Shown here: positions 1 through 9,038 of the stretch, piece by piece
Position numbering within the stretch: the first letter of the stretch is position 1
Layout of the letters: each line of letters starts with the position of its first letter
Origin: Tritonibacter litoralis
Lineage (GTDB): Bacteria > Pseudomonadota > Alphaproteobacteria > Rhodobacterales > Rhodobacteraceae
Direction of reading: 5' to 3'
Assembly: GCF_009496005.1 (NCBI RefSeq)
Contig: NZ_WIBF01000001.1
Span: 1 to 64,000, forward strand
DNA: 64,000 nt
Made by a program: the position numbers and the translations under genes
Notes under the pieces: generated by a model
Seen by the model: only the letters and a program-made list of their open reading frames with translations
The model's database searches: none
What the model was told of the DNA's origin: nothing

Positions 1-230
1 GCCACATTCAGCGTGCCATCGGCAAACCAGTTGATCGACACATTGCCCGGCGCAAAGCTCACATCTTTGACTTGGGTAAACGGTTTGATCCAATCCACCC
101 GCTTCGCCTGCTCCCCCCAGAACCCTTCAGGGTCAGACACAGATGCAGAATAAAGACTGCTGTATTGCGCTGCGTTGACATGGGCCTTGGCCACCATGTC
201 CTGAGGTGGCTCATGTGTGTTTGTGGTCAT
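1..230 (-). CDS. acs: Acetyl-CoA synthetase, N-terminal part (cut by window edge)
   Basis: The first 76 codons read on the minus strand from an ATG at 230, with a GGAGAG ribosome site just upstream; the rest lies outside the window. The visible part matches the N-terminal domain of AMP-forming acetyl-CoA synthetase: an early YxxLYxxSVSDPEGFW motif, then KRVDWIKPF and a INWFADGTLNV segment where the family has WF.DG.LN. The enzyme activates acetate (or propionate) to its CoA ester through an acyl-adenylate. It lies downstream of the thiamine operon on the same strand but is separated by about 150 bases, so it probably has its own promoter. The catalytic part is not visible, so a related acyl-CoA synthetase (for example PrpE) is not fully excluded. 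Confidence 0.85.
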   Translation of the reverse strand, partial: MTTNTHEPPQDMVAKAHVNAAQYSSLYSASVSDPEGFWGEQAKRVDWIKPFTQVKDVSFAPGNVSINWFADGTLNV

Positions 231-384
231 CGATCTCTCCTCGCTGTCAGAAGCACGTTTAATTCTGCCGCCTGCGCGGTGGCTCCGGCAACGTGTTCTC
301 TCCGTCTTTAGTGCACCATAGTTTGTCCCTCTTTGGGAAGGAACTTGACTTAAAGTCGTAGAGTTTTTGGAAGAAAAATTGTCG

Positions 385-1137
385 CTAGCGGTGCTGGTTC
401 AGGATCTTCACACAAAATCGGTCCACGCAAGTGTGGAGAAGCAGTGTAAAGAACGCCAGAACCACAAGGGCGGCGAACATCAGATCGATTTTGGCACGGC
501 CATTGGCCAGGAGCATCAAATAGCCGAGCCCCTTGGAGGCACCAACCCATTCACCGATGATCGCGCCAATCGGAGCATAGACGGCGGCCAGTCGCAGGCC
601 CGAAGCAAAGCCGGGCAGTGCGGCAGGGATGCGGATTTGCCGCATGATTTGCCATTTGCTGGCGCCCATAACTTGGGCAAGGCCGAGCCATCCGCTGGGT
701 GTGCGAACCAATGCATCAAAAAACGCGGATGTAACCGGGAAGAAGATGATCAGCAGCGCCATAGCGATCTTGGACAAAAGCCCATAGCCCAGCCATAGCG
801 TTAATAGCGGCGCGAGGGCAAAGACCGGGATGGTTTGCGAGAACACCAAAAGCGGTCGCACCAGGACTTCGGCGGTTTTCGACGACGCCAGCCAAATCGC
901 GGTAAGCCCGCCTATGGTGGCCCCCAGAACCAGTCCTGCAATGACCTCGAATATTGTGATCACCGCATGTTCCGCCAGCAATGCGCGGCTCTTCCACAGG
1001 GTTTCGGCAACCAGCTGCGGGGCTGGCAGGATGAATTTGGGCAGGTCAAAGACCACAACCACCCCATGCCACAGGGCCAACCCGACGCACAGCGACAGCG
1101 CCACCCTGTGCCAGGTTTTTAGCCCCGATAGGGTCAT
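385..1137 (-). CDS. thiX: ABC transporter permease for a thiamine pyrimidine precursor (ThiX-like)
   Basis: A 250-residue inner-membrane permease of the SsuC/TauC-like family. Hydrophobic segments lie near residues 12-32, 58-83, 96-140, 183-200 and 215-237. The EAA loop that contacts the ATPase is at about 157-171 (MGASKWQIMRQIRIP). It is the last gene of the operon; its ATG overlaps the stop of the TenA gene before it (ATGA at 1134-1137). With the ATPase at 1787-2512 and the binding protein at 3186-4121 it forms a complete importer. Its position in a TPP-riboswitch operon beside tenA genes points to uptake of a formylamino- or hydroxymethyl-pyrimidine. The substrate is inferred from context. 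Confidence 0.85.
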   Translation of the reverse strand: MTLSGLKTWHRVALSLCVGLALWHGVVVVFDLPKFILPAPQLVAETLWKSRALLAEHAVITIFEVIAGLVLGATIGGLTAIWLASSKTAEVLVRPLLVFSQTIPVFALAPLLTLWLGYGLLSKIAMALLIIFFPVTSAFFDALVRTPSGWLGLAQVMGASKWQIMRQIRIPAALPGFASGLRLAAVYAPIGAIIGEWVGASKGLGYLMLLANGRAKIDLMFAALVVLAFFTLLLHTCVDRFCVKILNQHR

Positions 1138-1787
1138 CGCGCGACCTCAAACCCGGCCCAGGCGGCGTCAAAGAAGGCACGCTCCAGCTGCACAGTGTCG
1201 AAGAACCGTTGTGTGGCGGCGGTTTGCGCCGTGTCGCTCAGCGAAGGCCAGATCGCGTCCAATTGACCGCGCAGATATTCAACCACGCCTTCAAAACCAG
1301 GGCCCGCGTGCAGGGTGATCCATTCGCCAAAGTAAAAGGGGAGACCAGCGGCGCGTTTTTCCTGCGGCGCAGCCCAGGACAGATAGGTCCACTCTGCAAC
1401 CACGAGCACCGCCAGCATTTCCTCGTATTTGCCCGTCAAACGCGCGTCGCGCATTTGGATCAGAAAGGCCTGTGTTTGTGGTGCAGCGGCCTCCGCCTCG
1501 GGCGCGTCAAGGGCTGCGAGGCTGCGCTGGAAATAGGTGTTTTCGGGGCCTGTGATGACGGCCAGAAACTGTGCGGCGGGCACCGCGTCTGTTAGGCTGG
1601 GTGCGTTGGAAATTGCAGCCGCCAGAAGGCGCACGAATTCTTCGACAAACAGGTAGTCCTGTTGCAAATATCCGCGCATCTTGTCCAAATCCAATGTGCC
1701 ATCACACAAGGCATCGGTGAAGGCATGGGCGGTTGCGGCGTCCCAGTTGGATTGGCATTGGGATTTCAGGAATTCGGTCGGGCGCAT
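1134..1787 (-). CDS. TenA-like protein lacking the catalytic cysteine (TenA_E type)
   Basis: A 217-residue all-helical TenA/THI-4 family protein. Its N-terminal QDYLFVEEF (43-51) matches the other TenA in this operon (QDYIFLIHF). Where canonical TenA has its nucleophilic Cys in an APC...GYGEIG motif, this protein reads VVAEWTYLSW (129-138), with Glu132 and no Cys; Glu202 near the C-terminus is kept. This is the hallmark of the TenA_E subgroup. Plant members are reported to act on formylamino- and amino-pyrimidine thiamine breakdown products rather than as true thiaminases. It overlaps thiX (ATGA) and is joined to the ATPase gene by a TGATG overlap. It probably completes pyrimidine salvage; the exact reaction is inference. 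Confidence 0.82.
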   Translation of the reverse strand: MRPTEFLKSQCQSNWDAATAHAFTDALCDGTLDLDKMRGYLQQDYLFVEEFVRLLAAAISNAPSLTDAVPAAQFLAVITGPENTYFQRSLAALDAPEAEAAAPQTQAFLIQMRDARLTGKYEEMLAVLVVAEWTYLSWAAPQEKRAAGLPFYFGEWITLHAGPGFEGVVEYLRGQLDAIWPSLSDTAQTAATQRFFDTVQLERAFFDAAWAGFEVAR

Positions 1788-2512
1788 CAGCTGTCCTGTC
1801 TGAGTTGGTTCAAAAGCCGCGCCTGAAGATCCAGCACCTCGGCGCTGTCCACGGGGCGGGGGATGGCGGAGTGTGGCGCGGGGACCTTGATCAACTGGGT
1901 TTCCGTCAACACCAGGATCTGATGGCCAAGGCGCGCGGCTTCGCCGGGATCATGGGTCACATGCAACACGGTGCGGCCCGCGAGTTTGTCGGCCGCCAGA
2001 TCCTGCATATCCGCGCGGGTGCGGGCATCCAATGCCGAAAATGGCTCATCCAGTAGCACAACGGGACGGTCTTCCATCAGGGTGCGCGCCAGCGCCACCC
2101 GTTGCCGTTGCCCACCCGACAGCTCGGCCGGATGTTTGCGGATATGCTCCGTAAGCCCAACCTCAGCCAAGAGGGTTTCGGCCAGATCACTGGGCGGTCG
2201 TTCCCGGCGCAGGCGTGCGCCCAGGCTGACGTTCTGGCGTAAATCCAGCCAAGGCATCAGCAGGTCTTCTTGGGCCATCAAAGCGATGCGCCCGGCCAGG
2301 GGGGCACCATCCGAGCTGCCAAAAGTGCCGTCAAAGGAAACCCCCGTGGCGAGGTCAGCAAAGAGTTTCAGGATTGTGCTTTTCCCCACGCCCGATGGTC
2401 CCAACAAACAGGTCCAGCGCCCAGCAGGCAGGGTTACGTCCACCGGGCCAAACAAAGGCTTGGCGTCGATACGGGCGCTGCCGCGCAGAAAAAGGCCCGG
2501 TGGCGTGGTCAC
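1787..2512 (-). CDS. thiZ: ABC transporter ATPase for pyrimidine precursor uptake (ThiZ-like)
   Basis: A 241-residue nucleotide-binding subunit. Walker A is GPSGVGKS (38-45), the Q-loop Gln is 81, the signature LSGGQ is 131-135, and Walker B VVLLDE (151-156) is followed by FSALD. The length is normal for the NitT/TauT-type ATPases that pair with SsuC-like permeases. It lies between the two tenA genes: its start overlaps the stop of the upstream tenA by 4 bases (ATGA) and its stop overlaps the start of the tenA_E gene. With the permease and ThiY-like binding protein it forms the operon's importer. Pyrimidine transport is inferred from the riboswitch and neighbours, not from the ATPase itself. 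Confidence 0.85.
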   Translation of the reverse strand: MTTPPGLFLRGSARIDAKPLFGPVDVTLPAGRWTCLLGPSGVGKSTILKLFADLATGVSFDGTFGSSDGAPLAGRIALMAQEDLLMPWLDLRQNVSLGARLRRERPPSDLAETLLAEVGLTEHIRKHPAELSGGQRQRVALARTLMEDRPVVLLDEPFSALDARTRADMQDLAADKLAGRTVLHVTHDPGEAARLGHQILVLTETQLIKVPAPHSAIPRPVDSAEVLDLQARLLNQLRQDS

Positions 2513-3183
2513 GGGGTCATGCCCATTTGCCAGAACCCAACCTCCAGCCGGGTTGCGGTTGTAAAACGGTCACAAAGGGATGTCCACCGGGGGCTGTCTT
2601 CGGGATGGTCTCCCAGACGGCGGGCCACCGCGCTGTCGATCAACGCACCGGCCGCTTTGCAGACTTCTTGAAAGTCGTCACTGGCATAGGTGTCGATCCA
2701 CTGTTGATAGGGGGTCTCGCCTGCCGCCTCCTTGAGCCGCGCGCCGATCTCTCCGTAACCGATAACACAAGGGGCAAGGGCTGCCAGCAGATCCAGAAAA
2801 TCGCCGGAATGGCCCGCATCCAGGACAAAGCGCGTGTAGGCGAGGTTTTCGATCCGCTCTTCTGCCTTGGCCAGATCCGCCTCGGAAATGCCCGCCTCGG
2901 CGCAGATGCCAATGTGGAGCTTCATTTCTCCGTCAATCAGCGCGTTTACGGTGGCGGCGCAGTGGCGCATTTCGTCGATTGTGTCGGCTTTGGTCACTGC
3001 CAAGGCCCAAGCACGAGAGAAATGGATCAGGAAGATATAGTCCTGAACCAGATAATGCAGGAAGGACGCCTGCGGCAGGGAGCCGTCTCGCAGACCTTCG
3101 ACAAAGGCATGATGGGTATAGGCAGGCCAGGTCTCCCCGGCCGCCGCCCGCCATTTGCCAAAAATGGAACCGTAATCAGACAT
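2509..3183 (-). CDS. tenA: Aminopyrimidine aminohydrolase / thiaminase II, canonical TenA
   Basis: A 224-residue TenA with the full active site. The nucleophile Cys139 lies in APCVIGYGEIG (137-147), the conserved QDYIFLIHF is at 47-55, and Glu214 with nearby Trp218 is in LEVGFW near the C-terminus. Such enzymes hydrolyse aminomethylpyrimidine to HMP, which ThiD then phosphorylates, so the step fits between import by ThiXYZ and thiamine synthesis. The gene starts one base after the stop of thiY and overlaps the thiZ start by 4 bases. Having both this Cys-type and a Glu-type TenA in one operon is notable. Confidence 0.92.
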   Translation of the reverse strand: MSDYGSIFGKWRAAAGETWPAYTHHAFVEGLRDGSLPQASFLHYLVQDYIFLIHFSRAWALAVTKADTIDEMRHCAATVNALIDGEMKLHIGICAEAGISEADLAKAEERIENLAYTRFVLDAGHSGDFLDLLAALAPCVIGYGEIGARLKEAAGETPYQQWIDTYASDDFQEVCKAAGALIDSAVARRLGDHPEDSPRWTSLCDRFTTATRLEVGFWQMGMTP

Positions 3184-3185
3184 GA

Positions 3186-4121
3186 TTATTCGCCCAGATC
3201 CACCGCAAGATCACCAACCGCCTTGATCTCTTCAATCAGGCCGGCCTCATGCAGGAAGGTTTCAAACCGTGCATAACGCCCTTCGTCCAGCGCTTCGGGG
3301 CGCAGGGCAAAACGGGGCAGGGTGTCGACCCAGGCTTTGGCGTTCAGCTCATCCTGCAGCTCGGTCGAGGTGGCGGCAAAGATCTCCCAGCTGTCTTCGG
3401 GGTGGTTCACAATATACTGCGTGGCCTTTTCGGTCGCAGCCATAAACCGGCGCAGCATGTCCTTGTCCATCAGTTCGGGATTGGCGACATAGATCAGCTC
3501 GTCATAGGACGGCAGGCCTTCTTCTTCGATGTAGAAACAGCGGCCCTCGACGCCTTCGATCTCCATCTGGTTCAGCTCAAAGTTCCGATAGGCCCCAATC
3601 ACCGCATCCACCTGACCCGACATCAGCGAGGGTGACAGCGACCAGTTCACATTGACCAGCTCTACGTCTTCATAAGCCACACCATGGGTGCCCAGAACCG
3701 TGCTCAACAACGCCTCTTCGACACCGGCGACAGAGAAGCCGATTTTCTTACCCTTTAGATCTGCGATTTCCTGAATAGGGCCGTCCTTCAAAACCAGCAG
3801 ACAGTTGAGCGGTGTCGCAACCAGCGTGCCCACACGTTTCAGCGGCAGACCTTCGGCCACCTGCAGGTGCAGCTGCGGCTGATAGGAAATCGCCAATTCG
3901 GCCTTGCCCGCTGCGGCCAGTTTCGGCGGATCCGAGGGATCGGCGGGAGCGATGATTTCGACCTCAAGCCCTTGGTCGGCGAAATAACCGTTTTCCTGCG
4001 CAATAATGATCGGTCCGTGGTCTGGGTTGATGAACCAATCCAGCAGTAGCGTCATCTTATCAGCGGCAAAGGCCGGGCTTGCCACCATCAGGGCAAGGGC
4101 GGCGGTCAGGGTCTTTTTCAT
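3186..4121 (-). CDS. thiY: Periplasmic pyrimidine-binding protein (ThiY, NMT1/THI5-like)
   Basis: A 311-residue substrate-binding protein. The ATG at 4121 was chosen because it gives a typical signal peptide (MKKTLTAALALMVASPAFA, cleavage after AFA) and an ATGA overlap with the upstream gene; the open frame extends further only through non-signal sequence. The mature part begins KMTLLLDWFINPDHGP, typical of the NMT1/THI5 fold that binds pyrimidine thiamine precursors, and ISYQP and GKKIGF segments follow. It should capture a formylamino- or hydroxymethyl-pyrimidine in the periplasm and hand it to the permease at 385-1137. Ligand identity is inferred from family and riboswitch context. Confidence 0.9.
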   Translation of the reverse strand: MKKTLTAALALMVASPAFAADKMTLLLDWFINPDHGPIIIAQENGYFADQGLEVEIIAPADPSDPPKLAAAGKAELAISYQPQLHLQVAEGLPLKRVGTLVATPLNCLLVLKDGPIQEIADLKGKKIGFSVAGVEEALLSTVLGTHGVAYEDVELVNVNWSLSPSLMSGQVDAVIGAYRNFELNQMEIEGVEGRCFYIEEEGLPSYDELIYVANPELMDKDMLRRFMAATEKATQYIVNHPEDSWEIFAATSTELQDELNAKAWVDTLPRFALRPEALDEGRYARFETFLHEAGLIEEIKAVGDLAVDLGE

Positions 4122-5110
4122 GGCGTGTTCTCCAAAGTCTGGCTCTGGTCTCCCAGAGCGATCATGGCAATGTCGCCCGCGTGATGCGGGGCAAGGGTTT
4201 CGGCAGCGGCCCAGGCTCGCAGGCCAGAGCGACAGCACAAAAGAATACGTTGGCCTGCCTGGGCCATCGGCGGGTTGTTTGCGATGTCGTCCACGCTGCG
4301 GCGCAGTGCGGTGGGATGGGCCAACGGCCCCTCGTCAGGCTGGCGCAGATCGATGATCAGATCATTTGTGGTCATGGCCGCAGGTGCGACAAACTTCGGC
4401 GCAAACGCAGGCTCGGGCGCGCGGTCAAAGCGAAATCCGCCAAAGCGAAATCCACGGGCATCAAAAGTCACAAGCTGGCCCAGAGGGCTCGGCGTTTGAC
4501 CAGTCAGAACCGCGACGGCCATCTGGGCCTGAAGGGTGGCAAGAACGCCGACCACAGGCCCCAGAACGCCCAAGGTGGCACAGGTGCCAGCCGCGCGGGG
4601 CAAATCCGGGAACAGCGCCCGCAGCGAAGGCGCGCCACCACAGAACCCGCCGACATAGCCATCCATCCCCACAACCGACGCGCTGATGAGCGGCAGATGC
4701 ATGTTTTGGCACATGTCAGAGGCGATGTAGCTTGCGGCAAAACTGTCGGCGCAATCCAGCACCAGATCCATGTCCTGACAGAGGGTCGCGGCGTTCTCGG
4801 GCCCGAATTGCGCCACATGTGCAATCACCCGGCATTTGGGGTTGAGCGTTGCCAGGTGATCCGCGGCCGCCACGGCCTTTGGACGGGAGACATCCGTTTC
4901 GCGAAACAACGTCTGGCGATGCAGGTTGGACAGTTCAACTGTGTCCGGGTCAACCACGTGGATCTCAGCCAGGCCTGCGCCCACCAGATAGGGCAGCAAA
5001 GGTGCTGCCAAGCCGCCTGCACCAATCACCAGAATACGCGCGCGTTCCAGCGCGGCCTGCCCAAGGGGGCCAAACTCCGGCACGGCGATTTGGCGGGCAT
5101 AACGGCTCAT
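4118..5110 (-). CDS. thiF: ThiF/MoeB-like E1 enzyme fused to a rhodanese-like domain
   Basis: The ATG at 5110 gives 330 residues and an ATGA overlap with thiE; an upstream in-frame start would only add six residues. The N-terminal E1 domain has the nucleotide loop IGAGGLAAP (29-37), a DPDTVELSNLHRQTLF substrate/ATP segment (54-69) and TCATLGVLGPVVG (176-188), so it should adenylate the ThiS C-terminus. The CxxC pair expected just before this loop and the second CxxC near the domain end are absent, so the usual structural zinc site is missing. The C-terminal 80 residues end in a rhodanese loop CCRSGLRA (292-299) that could carry persulfide sulfur. Function in ThiS activation is inferred from operon position between thiE and thiY. 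Confidence 0.85.
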   Translation of the reverse strand: MSRYARQIAVPEFGPLGQAALERARILVIGAGGLAAPLLPYLVGAGLAEIHVVDPDTVELSNLHRQTLFRETDVSRPKAVAAADHLATLNPKCRVIAHVAQFGPENAATLCQDMDLVLDCADSFAASYIASDMCQNMHLPLISASVVGMDGYVGGFCGGAPSLRALFPDLPRAAGTCATLGVLGPVVGVLATLQAQMAVAVLTGQTPSPLGQLVTFDARGFRFGGFRFDRAPEPAFAPKFVAPAAMTTNDLIIDLRQPDEGPLAHPTALRRSVDDIANNPPMAQAGQRILLCCRSGLRAWAAAETLAPHHAGDIAMIALGDQSQTLENTP

Positions 5111-5703
5111 CCGCAGGTCTCCAGCCATTGGCGCACGCGTCCTTCAGGGTCTTCGTTCAGGGTGATGTCCGTCACCGCTGACACCACATCTGCACCCGCC
5201 GCAAAGGCACCCGGCGCGCGCTCGACGTTCATACCGCCGATGGCGATCAAGGGCGTGTCGCCAATGCGGTCTTTCCAGTCTGTTAGCTTTTCAACACCTT
5301 GCTGGTGCCACTTCATCTTTTTCAAAATGGTGGGATAAACCGGTCCCAGGGCCACGTAGTCCGGCTGGCAGGCCATGGCGCGGTCCAGTTCGGCGATGTC
5401 ATGGGTCGACAGCCCCAGTTTCAGGCCTGCGGCTTTGATCGCATCCAGATCGGCGGTGTCCAGATCCTCTTGCCCCAGATGCAGCCAATCACACTCCAGA
5501 TCGATGGCCAGTTGCCAATAGTCATTCACAACCAAAATCGCGCCGTGTTCATGGCACAGATCGCGTCCTGCGATCAGCTGCGCGCGTAGCTCAGCCTCGG
5601 GCTGGTCCTTGATCCGAAGCTGCACCAGTTTGATACCCAAGGGCAGCAGACGTTCCAGCCAGTTCACATGGTCAAAGATCGGGTAAAAACGGGGTAGGCT
5701 CAT
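5107..5703 (-). CDS. thiE: Thiamine-phosphate synthase
   Basis: A 198-residue TIM-barrel enzyme that joins HMP pyrophosphate to carboxythiazole phosphate to give thiamine phosphate. Landmarks are VQLRIKD (27-33), VVNDYWQLA (58-66), WLHLGQEDL (73-81), LGLSTH (96-101), GPVYPT (120-125), and a C-terminal IAIGGMN (about 149-155). The length is near the family norm of about 200. It overlaps thiG upstream and the thiF-like gene downstream by 4 bases each, so translation is probably coupled along the operon. The [13 protein letters not shown] stretch varies slightly from the common GPVFPTxTK form but keeps the pyrophosphate-binding pattern. Confidence 0.93.
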
Positions 5704-6473
5704 TCCAGAAACGCCTTTCCAATCACTGGGGTTGACGGCGCGGCCATGTCGCGGGGCTCCATCGGGTCAGCCTCATAGGCCATACGCCCGGCTTCCACCG
5801 CTTGGGCAAAACCTTGGGCCATCTGCGCGGGGTCTCCGGCCTTGGCCACAGCGGTGTTCAACAGAACCGCGTCAAAGCCCAGTTCCATCGCCGCCGCCGC
5901 CTGACTTGGCAGGCCAAGGCCCGCATCAATCACCATAGGCACGTCTGGAAACTGGGCACGGATGCTGCGCAGGCCATAGATGTTGGACAGGCCCAGGCCG
6001 GACCCAATTGGTGCGCCCCAAGGCATCAGCACCTCGCAACCTGCATGCAGCAGCCGTTCGCCAAGGATCAGATCTTCGGTCGTATAGGGGAAGACCTGAA
6101 AGCCGTCGTCGCACAGGATCTTGGCCGCCTCGACCAAGGCAAAGGGATCGGGCTGCAACGTGTCCATATGGCCGATGACTTCCAGTTTGATCCAATTGGT
6201 ATCAAACAGCTCGCGCGCCATATGAGCGGTGGTGACCGCTTCGCGCACCGAATGGCAGCCCGCCGTATTGGGCAGGACCGCAACCCCCAGATCCTTGATC
6301 AGATCCCAGAATGCGCTGCCTGCCTTGTCGCCGCCGGCTTCGCGCCGCACAGAGACGGTGGCAATGCCTGCGCCCGATTGCTTGAACGCATCTGCCAGAA
6401 TGGCGGGGGATGGGTATTGCGCCGTGCCCAGCATCAGGCGGGAGGACACTTCGGTTCCGTAGAATTTCACCAT
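5700..6473 (-). CDS. thiG: Thiazole synthase
   Basis: A 257-residue enzyme that builds the thiazole phosphate ring from deoxyxylulose phosphate, dehydroglycine and ThiS thiocarboxylate. The Schiff-base lysine is Lys96 in WIKLEVIGH. Other signatures are the NTAGC (69-73), [15 protein letters not shown] (150-164) and [12 protein letters not shown] phosphate-binding segments. The length is typical. The gene lies directly after thiS (11-base gap) and overlaps thiE by 4 bases. With thiO supplying dehydroglycine through glycine oxidation, this is the aerobic thiazole branch rather than the ThiH radical-SAM branch. Confidence 0.95.
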
Positions 6474-6484
6474 TGTTTCGCTCC

Positions 6485-6682
6485 TCAGCCGCCCTGACGG
6501 GGGGCCACAATTTCCAACCGGTCGCCATCCGACAACGGGGTTGCAGCGCGCAGGGCTGCGGGCACAAAATCCTCGTTCACCGCGGTGGCCACTTTGGCAC
6601 CGCCATATCCCAGAGCCTCAAGCGCCTCAGCCAAGGTTGCGGCCTCCAGCGTTTTGGCTTCACCATTCACCGTGATCTTCAT
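6485..6682 (-). CDS. thiS: Sulfur carrier protein ThiS
   Basis: A 65-residue ubiquitin-like protein. It starts [10 protein letters not shown] and ends in Gly-Gly (IVAPRQGG), the C-terminus that is adenylated and converted to a thiocarboxylate. The central region ([14 protein letters not shown]) and [10 protein letters not shown] match the family. The start overlaps the end of thiO by 23 bases, and thiG follows after 11 bases. The protein is the sulfur donor to ThiG and is presumably charged by the ThiF-like/rhodanese protein encoded downstream. Confidence 0.95.
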
Positions 6683-7646
6683 CCATCATCTCCGGTTTGA
6701 TGTCGTCGCACACAAATTCAGCCACCTGGCGCGCCATCGCGGGGGCCAGAAGATATCCGTGCCGGAACATCCCATTTACAAAAATCGTCTGCCCGCGGTG
6801 GCGGATGCGGGGCATGTTGTCGGCAAAGGCGGGGCGGGCGTCGACGCCGATTTCCAGGATCTCAGCCTCGCCAAAGGCCGGGTGCAGGGCAAAGGCTGCG
6901 GTCAACAGCTCAAGGGTGGACCGCACCGTGGGCCGGGTCCGCTCGCCGCTTTCGATCTGGGTGGCCCCCAACATAAAGACGCCATCGCCGCGCGGCACCA
7001 CATACAAGGGAAAACGTGGATGCAAGAGGCGCACCGGACGGTGCAGTTTGACCTCGGTGCTGCGCAGGATCACCATTTCGCCTTTGACACCGCGCAAGTC
7101 CGTCAGTTGGTCCTGGGCTGCAAGCCCGCGACAGTCGATGATCCGCCCGCCGCTGGGTTGGTCATCGCTGATCTCAACATCTCGCGCCTGAAGCCCGTCC
7201 CACAGCTGCGCCAATGCGGCGCGGGGGGTGATATGGGCCTCGCTGTCAAACATTAGCGCCTCGCCGAAACGACCGCCGAGGTCCGGTTCCAGATCCGCAA
7301 TGTCCTGCGCGTTTACGTGGCGGTGCCCCTCTGTGCGGCGCGCAAACCGGGCAAGCTCGCGCCTGTCGCGGCCCAGGGCCACCACCAGCGAGCCATTGCG
7401 GACCACCTTGACGCCGTGACGTTCCCACCAACCGGCGGCCTCCTGACCCAGGCGCACCACCGGTTCCTCGGCGCTTTCGCCTTCGCAGAAGGGGGCAAGC
7501 ATGCCCGCCGCCCACCAGGAACAAGCCTGTGGTCCTGGCGCTTCGCCTTTTTCACAGATCCGAACCGGCACGCCGCGCGCGGTCAGCTCGGTTGCGACGC
7601 AGAGGCCGACAATGCCGCCGCCGTGGATGGTAATGCGCTCTGTCAT
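6660..7646 (-). CDS. thiO: Glycine oxidase ThiO
   Basis: The ATG at 7646 gives 328 residues and an ATGA overlap with thiD; the open frame continues upstream only inside thiD. The N-terminus TIHGGGIVGLCVATEL is the FAD-binding beta-alpha-beta turn, and QACSWWAAGMLAP follows at about residue 40, as in D-amino-acid-oxidase-fold glycine oxidases. Near the C-terminus, NGMFRHGYLLAPAMA is the conserved FAD-contact segment. The enzyme oxidises glycine to dehydroglycine (and peroxide) for ThiG, which makes the pathway oxygen-dependent. It overlaps thiS by 23 bases at its 3' end. Confidence 0.93.
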   Translation of the reverse strand: MTERITIHGGGIVGLCVATELTARGVPVRICEKGEAPGPQACSWWAAGMLAPFCEGESAEEPVVRLGQEAAGWWERHGVKVVRNGSLVVALGRDRRELARFARRTEGHRHVNAQDIADLEPDLGGRFGEALMFDSEAHITPRAALAQLWDGLQARDVEISDDQPSGGRIIDCRGLAAQDQLTDLRGVKGEMVILRSTEVKLHRPVRLLHPRFPLYVVPRGDGVFMLGATQIESGERTRPTVRSTLELLTAAFALHPAFGEAEILEIGVDARPAFADNMPRIRHRGQTIFVNGMFRHGYLLAPAMARQVAEFVCDDIKPEMMDEDHGEW

Positions 7647-8488
7647 GACCAAACCGCGTGGAAATGGTGCACCGGACCGTGGCCCTGGCCGATGTTGATC
7701 TGATCCGCCGCCTTGATCGCGGCATGCAGCCAGCTGTGCGCATGCCCCACGGCCTGGGGCAGGGCACGCCCTTTGGCCAGTTCGGCCGCGATGGCAGAGG
7801 ACAGAGTGCAGCCGGTGCCATGAGTGTTTTGCGTGACAATGCGCGGGGCAGAGAAGTCCACAACGCTGTCCTTTGAGACGAGACGGTCCACACACACATC
7901 ACCTGTGCCATGGCCGCCTTTCATCAGAACCGCTTTGGCCCCTAACTCACAAAGCTTGCGCCCCTGGTCCAATGCTTCGGCCTCATTTGCGGCCTCTTCC
8001 ACCCCAAGGATCCGCGCCGCTTCGGGCAGGTTCGGTGTCAGAACCGTGGCGCGCGGCAACAACAGCGTCGTCAGCGCATCAATGGCATCTGTGGCCAACA
8101 GCGCATCGCCGGATTTTGCCACCATCACCGGGTCCAAGACGATGGGACCTTGATAGCCGTCAAGCGCCGCAGTGACTTCTTCGATGACCGCAACAGTGGC
8201 CAGCATTCCGATTTTGATCGCGCCAATCTCGATGTCATCCAGCACGGCGGCGATCTGCGCGGCAATCATGCCCGGTGCCGCCGCCTCGACCCGTGTGACC
8301 GCACGGGTGTTTTGCGCCGTTAGCGCTGTGATGGCGCTGCAGCCAAAGACACCCAGTGCAGAAAAGGTCTTGAGATCAGCCTGAATGCCTGCACCGCCGC
8401 CACTGTCGGATCCGGCAATGGTCAATGCCGCCACAGCCTGTGGCTTGGTTTGTCCGGCTTCACCGGTCTTTGAGGTCACGCGTTCCAT
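7643..8488 (-). CDS. thiD: HMP / HMP-phosphate kinase
   Basis: First gene of the thiamine operon, 281 residues from the ATG at 8488; a GTG two codons upstream (8494) is an alternative start. GSDSGGGAGIQADLKTF near residue 28 and ALTAQNT are the ribokinase-like substrate motifs. DPVMVAKSGDALL and NTHGTGCTLSSAIAAELAKG (the GTGC anion hole and catalytic region) are also present. It phosphorylates hydroxymethylpyrimidine twice to give the ThiE substrate. The 5' leader carries a TPP riboswitch about 95 bases upstream, so the whole operon should be shut down by thiamine pyrophosphate. Confidence 0.94.
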   Translation of the reverse strand: MERVTSKTGEAGQTKPQAVAALTIAGSDSGGGAGIQADLKTFSALGVFGCSAITALTAQNTRAVTRVEAAAPGMIAAQIAAVLDDIEIGAIKIGMLATVAVIEEVTAALDGYQGPIVLDPVMVAKSGDALLATDAIDALTTLLLPRATVLTPNLPEAARILGVEEAANEAEALDQGRKLCELGAKAVLMKGGHGTGDVCVDRLVSKDSVVDFSAPRIVTQNTHGTGCTLSSAIAAELAKGRALPQAVGHAHSWLHAAIKAADQINIGQGHGPVHHFHAVWS

Positions 8489-8548
8489 GCCCACGCCTTT
8501 CGCTTGGCGATACGGGCGTCAGCGCAGATACATCGGGGGCGTTCCACC

Positions 8549-8577
8549 AAGACACCGCAGATGCTGCGGGACGGGTG
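8549..8577 (-). promoter_or_regulatory. Hairpin between TPP aptamer and thiD start (possible expression platform)
   Basis: On the minus strand, just after the aptamer, CCGCAG-CAT-CTGCGG forms a six-pair stem, and an outer GACACC/GGTGTC pairing competes for the same GG. There is no U-tract after it, so it does not look like a simple terminator. It could switch pairing with the aptamer's 3' strand and control access to the ribosome site about 60 bases on. Mechanism is inference. Confidence 0.4.
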
Positions 8578-8582
8578 TCAGG

Positions 8583-8668
8583 TCTCCGTTTCCTACGCCG
8601 GCATTGCCCGGATCAGGTTCGATGGGTTGACTGCTGCCTCTCAGCCCCAAATAAAAGGGGCACCCCAA
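8583..8668 (-). promoter_or_regulatory. TPP riboswitch (THI element) upstream of thiD
   Basis: The minus strand reads GGGGTGCC, then GGGGCTGAGAGG, then ACCCATCGAACCTGATCC, and finally GGGCAATGCCGGCGTAGGAA. The CUGAGA pyrimidine-sensor loop and the GAACCUGAUC...GCCGGCGUAGG core are the invariant parts of the thiamine pyrophosphate aptamer. It lies 95-180 bases upstream of thiD, in the 5' leader of the 11-gene operon, and should repress it when TPP is plentiful. Confidence 0.95.
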
Positions 8669-8682
8669 CGGATGTCGTAGGG

Positions 8683-8711
8683 ACTGTATTTGGAAACGGC
8701 ATCTGGGGCAA
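8683..8711 (-). promoter_or_regulatory. Candidate sigma70 promoter of the thiamine operon
   Basis: On the minus strand TTGCCC (8711-8706), a 17-base spacer and TACAGT (8688-8683) lie immediately upstream of the riboswitch. Each hexamer matches four of six consensus bases. Transcription would start near 8676, a few bases before the aptamer, which is the expected geometry. Confidence 0.4.
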
Positions 8712-9038
8712 GGGGGGGGACTTTTGCACAATAGGTTCCAAAAAACGAATATCACACTGAACCTGATTGGTCACACATTCGACAAATTGGATAATTTCAA
8801 ACCAACTGCGGATTTAGAGATGGCTTCAGGGATCACGAGCCGTGTTCAACTTTGGCGGTTGTCACGAAATGAGTATTTTCTAACGTACAATCCACTTATT
8901 TACCAATTTTCATGGGGATAAGCAGAAAGTGCACCGTGGATTCAGCTTTGATTTACTCCGTGATTCTACGAGTAGTTTGCATCGCATTTCGTTTTTTGGT
9001 TGTGTGATTCATCAGAAGCAAGATTTCAGGAGAGCCTG
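8712..9038. other. Intergenic region between the thiamine operon and the chemoreceptor gene
   Basis: About 330 bases, clearly richer in A and T than the flanking genes, between two divergently transcribed units. Open frames here are short and show no recognisable protein. The right end holds the AGGAGAG ribosome site (9028-9034) of the chemoreceptor gene. No convincing operator was seen. Confidence 0.6.

Follow-up and report, generated by a model that had tools for sequence, protein, structure and literature searches.

A thiamin operon with two TenA genes

The window analyzed here is a stretch of 64,000 nucleotides from the Tritonibacter litoralis contig NZ_WIBF01000001.1 (G000:C1:1-64000), whose minus strand carries one apparent operon for the metabolism of thiamin (vitamin B1). 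Running from position 8677 to 385, this operon consists of a thiamin pyrophosphate (TPP) riboswitch followed by thiD, thiO, thiS, thiG, thiE, thiF, thiY, tenA_C, thiZ, tenA_E, and thiX, and it joins thiazole synthesis genes to a pyrimidine salvage module. The module encodes two TenA proteins, at 2509–3183 and 1134–1787, which match TENA_THI-4 (Pfam PF03070) with 145.8 and 68.3 bits, respectively, against a cut-off of 22. As a first-pass annotation of this DNA had described, the two genes have these positions, flank an importer ATPase gene, and belong to a thiamin operon. Both reading frames lie on the minus strand, the gene between them (1787–2512) encodes an ABC ATPase, and the TPP riboswitch is at 8573–8677.

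The protein encoded at 2509–3183 is assigned by its sequence to the Cys-type TenA, or thiaminase II, class (TenA_C). It scores 134.7 bits on the thiaminase II profile TIGR04306 (cut-off 130) and has the canonical Cys139 and Glu214, which had been read correctly from the start, together with Asp48, Tyr116, Tyr143, and Tyr166. A near match is the solved protein of Ruegeria TM1040 (PDB 3mvu, E 1.7e-92). The protein encoded at 1134–1787 lacks a catalytic cysteine and scores 70.3 bits on TIGR04306, below the cut-off. It had been annotated as carrying Glu in place of Cys, a detail that does not hold. Profile alignment to solved TenA proteins and an alignment of 90 sequences place Ala131 in the column of Cys139 and of Cys135 in Bacillus subtilis (Bsu) TenA, and Glu132 is the next residue. 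The remainder of that claim, a TenA_E pattern with the second Glu retained, stands. The papers PMC5635689, PMC5623701, and PMC10470507 are cited here from excerpts; the first of these defines TenA_E by two conserved glutamates and names Arabidopsis Glu140 as a conserved TenA_E glutamate. The T. litoralis protein has Glu132, which aligns with Arabidopsis Glu140 in a profile reaching the plant protein, and Glu202 at the Bsu Glu205 site, along with Asp44, Phe108, Tyr135, and His160. On these residues we assign it to the TenA_E class.

The predicted structure of TenA_E (mean pLDDT 97.9) most closely resembles the TenA homologue of Streptococcus pneumoniae (1z72; Z 30.1, root-mean-square deviation (RMSD) 1.3). 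The latter (1z72, 2a6b) is also the closest solved protein by sequence (E 9.5e-27), and the identity of 1z72 to TenA_E is 31%. The model superposes on the Arabidopsis TenA_E protein At3g16990 (2f2g) with a Z of 28.2 and an RMSD of 1.6 over 205 residues, and Cys-type structures superpose at an RMSD of 2.1 or worse. Because 2f2g and the Bsu structures have equal Z scores, the fold supports the TenA_E assignment and does not decide it. The first 19 PDB matches of the protein are all TenA-family members by title or family match.

The importer genes of the module form a complete set by profile. ThiY, the substrate-binding protein (3186–4121), matches PF09084 (NMT1/THI5) with 257.9 bits, scored on a longer open reading frame; the permease ThiX (385–1137) matches PF00528 with 111.2 bits; and the ATPase ThiZ, which begins with GTG and occupies the same position in related operons, matches PF00005 with 88.1 bits. 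The best PDB match of ThiY is 3ix1 (E 3.5e-43), which binds N-formyl-4-amino-5-aminomethyl-2-methylpyrimidine (formylaminopyrimidine, FAMP). ThiXYZ is thus probably a FAMP-type importer, in agreement with the first-pass annotation.

We consider it fairly probable, at roughly 60%, that these genes serve to salvage FAMP in two steps. ThiXYZ would import FAMP, and TenA_E would hydrolyze its formamide to yield aminomethylpyrimidine (AmMP), the step for which Bacillus uses the M20 enzyme YlmB. TenA_C would then hydrolyze AmMP to hydroxymethylpyrimidine (HMP), which ThiD and ThiE would feed into thiamin. TenA_E would be the younger component, added to an older ThiXYZ-TenA_C operon and widening its substrates from AmMP and HMP to FAMP. 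We infer the substrates, the reactions, the order of the steps, and the later arrival of TenA_E; gene content, the riboswitch, residue classes, co-occurrence, and repeated clustering are observed here.

The riboswitch at the head of the operon (RF00059) scores 70.9 bits against a gathering threshold of 54.3. Behind it lie thiD (7643–8494), encoding an HMP(-P) kinase (PF08543, 311.8 bits; TIGR00097, 316.7 bits, cut-off 204.95), and thiO (6660–7646), encoding a glycine oxidase (PF01266; TIGR02352, 231.4 bits, below the cut-off of 250.8). The thiO profiles were run on the longer frame 6660–7895, within which the chosen ATG start lies. The sulfur carrier gene thiS (6485–6670), with a GTG start and a Gly-Gly C-terminus, was read from the sequence. 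It is followed by genes for thiazole synthase (thiG, 5700–6473; PF05690, 334.2 bits), thiamin phosphate synthase (thiE, 5107–5703; NF000734, 340 bits, cut-off 252), and a ThiF-like adenylyltransferase (4118–5128; PF00899, 207.8 bits; TIGR02356, 219.2 bits, below the cut-off of 275.25). From thiF through thiX, adjacent genes are separated by 2 bases or overlap by 1 to 4 bases (4 bases for thiY start/thiF, thiZ/tenA_C, and thiX/tenA_E; 1 base for tenA_E start/thiZ stop), a tight spacing that fits a coupled operon. Promoter and terminator scans of positions 1–9000 returned about as many sites as shuffled sequences (2 vs 2.6 and 11 vs 9.3, respectively).

Two TPP riboswitches were found in the genome. 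The second precedes thiC alone, the next likely gene being on the opposite strand. With thiC under this riboswitch, T. litoralis is probably capable of thiamin synthesis, to which salvage would be an addition. At the other end of the operon, the contig starts 384 bases past thiX, so a further operon gene might be cut off. Contigs break at a similar place, about 350–560 bases past thiX, in the window (1–384) and at the ends of four related loci (L019, L020, L044, and L053), hinting at a repeat or a replicon boundary.

Active-site residues of bacterial TenA_E proteins

Relatives of the TenA_E protein were collected from 58 loci in species genomes, several of them short. Initially 44 of these were aligned with the window protein, and 14 were left out for brevity; one locus (L076) encodes a Cys-type protein. 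The comparison comprises 55 TenA_E rows, among them one archaeal row (Haloferax plasmid, L155), and 26 TenA_C rows. At the Bsu Cys135 site, all 55 TenA_E rows have Ala and all 26 TenA_C rows have Cys. The following residue is Glu in 55/55 TenA_E rows and is variable in TenA_C (Val in 15, Met in 5, Ala in 3, otherwise Thr, Ser, or Leu). Two tyrosines of TenA_C are likewise replaced: the Bsu Tyr112 site is Phe in 54/55 TenA_E rows (Leu in one), and the Bsu Tyr163 site is His in 55/55. Asp44, Tyr135 (the Bsu Tyr139 site), and Glu202 (the Bsu Glu205 site) are kept throughout TenA_E. The S. pneumoniae protein 1z72 has the same Ala, Glu, Phe, and His at the four sites. The plant protein resembles the window protein in lacking Cys at the Bsu Cys135 site, in sharing Glu132 (Arabidopsis Glu140), Asp44, Tyr135, and Glu202, and in its fold; it differs in overall sequence (22% identity) and in having Ile139, Tyr115, and Trp168 where the window protein has Ala131, Phe108, and His160.

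In Bsu TenA, C135A abolishes activity and Y112F lowers it (PMC5623701). Because TenA_E naturally has Ala and Phe at these positions, it is unlikely, judging from the residues, to carry out the AmMP step by the mechanism of TenA_C. Y47F also impairs the Bsu enzyme (PMC5623701); Phe is common to both types at this site (55/55 TenA_E and 22/26 TenA_C rows), which therefore does not discriminate between them. The structure 2qcx is, by its title, Bsu TenA Y112F with a formylated pyrimidine bound. We infer that bacterial TenA_E may be specialized for the formyl step, and four active-site positions may decide whether a TenA protein removes a formyl or an amino group. It is tempting to go further and regard bacterial TenA_E as a dedicated pyrimidine formamide hydrolase, with the TenA fold carrying a new catalytic set of Glu132 next to the lost Cys, His160 in place of Tyr163, and Phe in place of Tyr112. 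Such an enzyme would have lost the second hydrolytic step that plants kept, would consequently depend on TenA_C, and would substitute for YlmB, lacking the M20 metal site, across many Pseudomonadota, with two paralogues using a single scaffold for two consecutive steps. We consider this extension somewhat less likely than not.

The division of labor between TenA_E and TenA_C had already been suggested in the first-pass annotation, and it does not follow from the class alone. Arabidopsis and maize TenA_E reportedly hydrolyze FAMP strongly and AmMP weakly, and thus perform both steps. The parts of that interpretation that find support are the TenA_E class, the link to a FAMP-type importer, the strong co-occurrence with TenA_C, and the lack of a linked M20 gene. 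An amidohydrolase (YlmB-like) role of plant TenA_E is summarized in PMC5635689. If the bacterial enzyme were bifunctional like its plant counterpart, converting FAMP through AmMP to HMP, TenA_C would handle imported AmMP or thiamin, and the two proteins would overlap rather than act in sequence. The alignment of Glu132 with plant Glu140 and the reported plant activities speak for such an arrangement, which we nevertheless find doubtful: Phe108 (54/55) and His160 (55/55) occupy the sites of plant Tyr115 and Trp168, and TenA_E is seldom found without TenA_C, a partner that a self-sufficient enzyme would not need. The exceptions to this pairing are two genomes, G161 and G162, in the second of which the other TenA match was not read.

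The pattern of conservation also bears on whether TenA_E is an enzyme at all. A non-catalytic partner, acting as a regulator or joining TenA_C in a mixed oligomer, would account for the shared operon, the similar protein sizes, and the tracking of TenA_C by TenA_E. Moreover, a group of S. pneumoniae-type homologues devoid of the Cys135 and Glu205 site residues is suspected to be non-enzymatic (PMC5623701). Yet Asp44, Glu132, Tyr135, His160, and Glu202 are invariant in all 55 rows; Glu occupies the Glu205 site in 1z72 and throughout the TenA_E rows, in contrast to the group described in the excerpt of PMC5623701; and the gene lies apart from tenA_C in many genomes. A purely structural or regulatory role thus appears very improbable.

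Gene neighborhoods and co-occurrence

Thi genes lie beside the TenA_E match in 35 of the 58 loci. Thirty of these contain the module thiY-tenA_C-thiZ-tenA_E-thiX, which in most cases is preceded by biosynthesis genes; 29 share this gene order, and in L023 tenA_E comes before thiZ. One such roseobacter-type locus (L020, from Tritonibacter aquimaris) was seen to have a TPP riboswitch. The others are a partial locus, L046, and four loci from Rhizobiaceae. Three of the latter have thiX-thiY-tenA_E with no tenA_C beside, and in the fourth, thiY-tenA_E lies where the contig ends; a Cys-type TenA is present elsewhere in all four genomes. A further arrangement, thiD-thiZ-thiX-thiY-tenA_E-tenA_C under a TPP riboswitch, occurs at L161, a locus from a distantly related genome within the phylum. 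The thiY gene of this locus (L161:4995-5951) is interrupted, a frame of 211 residues being followed by stops, which may reflect either decay of the gene or an error in sequencing. Gene content also varies within one genus: the operon of Ruegeria TM1040 is without tenA_E, and that of Ruegeria sp. SCSIO 43209 includes it.

In a tree of 70 rows, from which 20 of the 90 aligned rows were omitted as near-duplicate, partial, or odd, the operon-type roseobacter proteins included group together in a single clade of 17 (SH-aLRT 97); proteins from the other two associations branch elsewhere. Thus, TenA_E apparently met ThiX/ThiY on three separate occasions, the alternative being an ancient linkage followed by losses. 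The S. pneumoniae protein 1z72 falls inside the TenA_E side of the tree. The plant row also joins this side (92), on a very long branch (7.2) and with a placement flagged as unsure.

Co-occurrence was measured in two samples of genomes. Among 150 genomes of the family, close TenA_E relatives were found in 10, all of which also have TenA_C (37/150 overall; hypergeometric 3e-7) and ThiY (41/150 overall; hypergeometric 1e-6). The cut-off for TenA_E in this sample (E 1e-60) was picked after the list of matches had been seen. The next match, in G020 (1.3e-31, 38%), has the same Ala-Glu pair (L171) and is accompanied by TenA_C and ThiY, which brings the count to 11/11; below it are matches at 3e-19 and weaker, many at TenA_C places. 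Among 397 genomes of the phylum, a sample that covers the two TenA proteins, TenA_E was found in 13 (cut-off E 1e-28), and a TenA_C match (cut-off E 1e-18) accompanies it in 13/13 (81/397 overall; hypergeometric 5e-10, or about 3e-6 when each of 8 families is counted once), all of these values being inflated by common ancestry; the samples also overlap in part. The residue check in the phylum sample covered the TenA_E matches other than those of G185, G259, G454, and G514. Finally, TenA_C was read in 18 of the 20 genomes reached through TenA_E loci, the other two being G161 (1.9 Mb), which has no second TenA, and G162; several of the 20 (e.g. G058, G159) also belong to the other samples.

Formyl removal and growth on FAMP

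No YlmB-like gene is present in the window, as the first-pass annotation had noted; the nearest of ten M20 genes in the genome lies at C1:560948. Neither of the two TPP riboswitches of the genome, at the head of the window operon and before thiC, has an M20 gene nearby, and a ylmB homologue under the same riboswitch, which the first-pass annotation had named as refuting its proposal, was not found genome-wide. Each of the ten M20 proteins passes the threshold of another M20 family in NCBIfam, in a comparison whose queries did not include an authentic YlmB: three are placed as amidohydrolases, one as a succinyl-diaminopimelate desuccinylase, three as acetylornithine deacetylases (TIGR01892), one as an allantoate amidohydrolase, and two as unnamed or dipeptidase types. 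YlmB is therefore likely to be absent from the genome. Nor was a clear YlmB found in the roseobacters treated in the excerpt of PMC10470507, whose authors judged low-scoring hits to be ArgE/DapE-like. An unlinked M20 enzyme, for instance one of the three ArgE-like paralogues above the TIGR01892 cut-off, might still be the true formyl remover, leaving TenA_E as an extra. Ten M20 genes offer candidates, and they were compared without an authentic YlmB; we nonetheless hold this explanation to be quite improbable given their distance from both riboswitches, their membership in other M20 families, the neighbors of the three ArgE-like genes, which by eye are unlike thiamin genes, and the published judgment on such hits. 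Around the TenA_E relatives, the ten M20 proteins (tblastn, E 1e-5) have no match in any of the 58 loci, with flanks of up to 10 kb. Of the 30 relatives that share the module, 25 are readable for more than 3 kb past thiX.

Operons without tenA_E weaken the idea that YlmB is replaced. Of the 37 family genomes with TenA_C, 27 are without a close TenA_E, and 24 of these keep thiY-tenA_C-thiX with neither tenA_E nor an M20 match inside the operon (L109 has no thiZ match, and G020 has a distant TenA_E elsewhere). The operon in general thus needs no formyl-removing enzyme. Several observations weigh against two-step salvage as the function of the operon. In 22 of the 58 loci there is a TenA_E-type match with no visible thi gene beside it, so the link to the importer is not universal; 6 of the 10 family genomes carry tenA_E outside the thi operon, with TenA_C and ThiY still present; and in L046, a Pseudosulfitobacter locus, tenA_E directly follows thiF at a contig end with neither importer genes nor tenA_C between them. 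No TPP riboswitch reached the Rfam threshold in three Rhizobiaceae loci (L058, L067, and L071), and G259 has a weak TenA_C match (E 1.4e-22) and a TenA_E match with two stop codons. When ThiY and TenA_C from operons with TenA_E (34 rows) were compared with those from operons without it (25 rows), 6 rows from genomes holding TenA_E elsewhere having been left out, no alignment column separated the two sets sharply; the best differences were 0.67 and 0.73 for ThiY and TenA_C, respectively. The partial overlap of the samples and their shared ancestry belong here as well, as does the behavior of the plant enzyme, which by doing both steps implies that a TenA_E might not need TenA_C.

The suggestion in the first-pass annotation of a division of labor that would replace YlmB is weakened by the operons without tenA_E and is not supported in that form. 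The simple view that tenA_E takes the place of ylmB was also rejected, as no M20 match lies inside any of the 24 operons; one of them (L086) has an M20 gene just past thiX that is 41% identical to the L007 group and is not ArgE-like. Either the importers of these 24 operons take up AmMP or HMP and not FAMP, or the formyl group is removed elsewhere. Published growth data fit the former: Ruegeria pomeroyi DSS-3, to which ThiY and TenA_C but no TenA_E are attributed, could grow with AmMP or HMP but not with FAMP (PMC10470507), the pattern that two-step salvage predicts. The gene content of DSS-3 is taken from the excerpt of that paper, and the operon read here is that of its relative TM1040. The 24 relatives probably use only deformylated pyrimidines.

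A second strain points in the opposite direction. FAMP did not support growth of Sagittula stellata E-37, a strain to which both TenA types are attributed, and the authors propose that a transporter is missing (PMC10470507); this result counts among the points against two-step salvage. Our search of an E-37 plasmid found a TenA beside BtpA/SgcQ-type genes and a sugar-type kinase. Its group has the Ala-Glu pair, carries Glu in place of Asp44 in 3/3 rows, and branches apart in the tree (99). If this plasmid protein is the TenA_E of the authors, the accessions being unmatched, E-37 is no test of the operon type. According to the excerpt of PMC10470507, the combination of importer, TenA_E, and TenA_C was not represented among the two bacteria tested for growth on FAMP. 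We predict that T. litoralis and the relatives with this combination grow on FAMP.

The loci that are devoid of thi genes raise the question of whether FAMP is the main substrate of TenA_E. Its substrate could instead be another thiamin breakdown product or analogue, such as a pyrimidine with a different N-acyl group or an oxidized one. The Phe108/Ala131/Glu132/His160 set is unlike both characterized types, TenA_E also occurs away from ThiXYZ, and by eye no thi genes lie beside it in the gammaproteobacterial loci L049, L050, L055, L070, L073, and L075. On the other side are the repeated clustering with ThiY and the FAMP-binding protein that is its nearest solved relative, and we judge a different main substrate to be unlikely. 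In the Psychromonas locus L055 (L055:7240-10648), tenA_E follows a three-gene ABC importer that by eye appears to be of another kind (binding protein, permease, and ATPase); these genes are possibly a second type of pyrimidine importer.

Two-step salvage resembles the B. subtilis pathway, in which FAMP is imported, its formyl group is removed, and HMP is made (PMC5635689); the TenA_C proteins are of the same class, and the difference would lie in the assignment of formyl removal to a TenA paralogue rather than to an M20 enzyme. It differs from the plant system in that TenA_E is paired with TenA_C. Sets of TenA_C and TenA_E in roseobacters and haptophytes share with the window the presence of both types in one organism, the lack of a clear YlmB, and possible FAMP use, as far as the excerpts of PMC10470507 and PMC5635689 show. 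TenA_C, TenA_E, ThiXYZ, the formyl activity of plant TenA_E, and co-possession of both types in roseobacters are all published. We found no description of the combined ThiXYZ-TenA_C-TenA_E operon, its repeated assembly, its tie to TenA_C, or the Phe/His signature in the portions of the literature available to us, and Zallot 2014 may hold part of it. FAMP has recently been recognized as a breakdown product of vitamin B1 in seawater, and according to PMC10470507 it is not known what an organism gains from having both types of TenA. The operon suggests a concrete, testable answer to the latter: two steps, two paralogues, and one importer. If this reading is true, operon content names the marine strains expected to grow on FAMP, and one sister enzyme probably does the job of an unrelated Bacillus enzyme in the recycling of broken vitamin B1.

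Other members of the TenA family were also encountered. The strongest PF03070 match of the genome (L001) was rejected as a third salvage TenA; by its neighbors and sequence it is pqqC, within an apparent pqqBCDE cluster at G000:C45 (L001:593-3574). The third TenA group, to which the E-37 plasmid protein belongs, lies on Roseobacteraceae plasmids directly after a BtpA/SgcQ-family gene and near PfkB/ribokinase-type kinases (L150:4151-5639, L151:4111-5606, and L157:4151-5642), and the Glu at its Asp44 position suggests a different substrate. L150 and L157 additionally contain genes for a phosphotriesterase, a glutamine amidotransferase, and an ABC importer. On the opposite strand of L150, a gene for an M20 metallopeptidase runs towards the TenA gene of this group.

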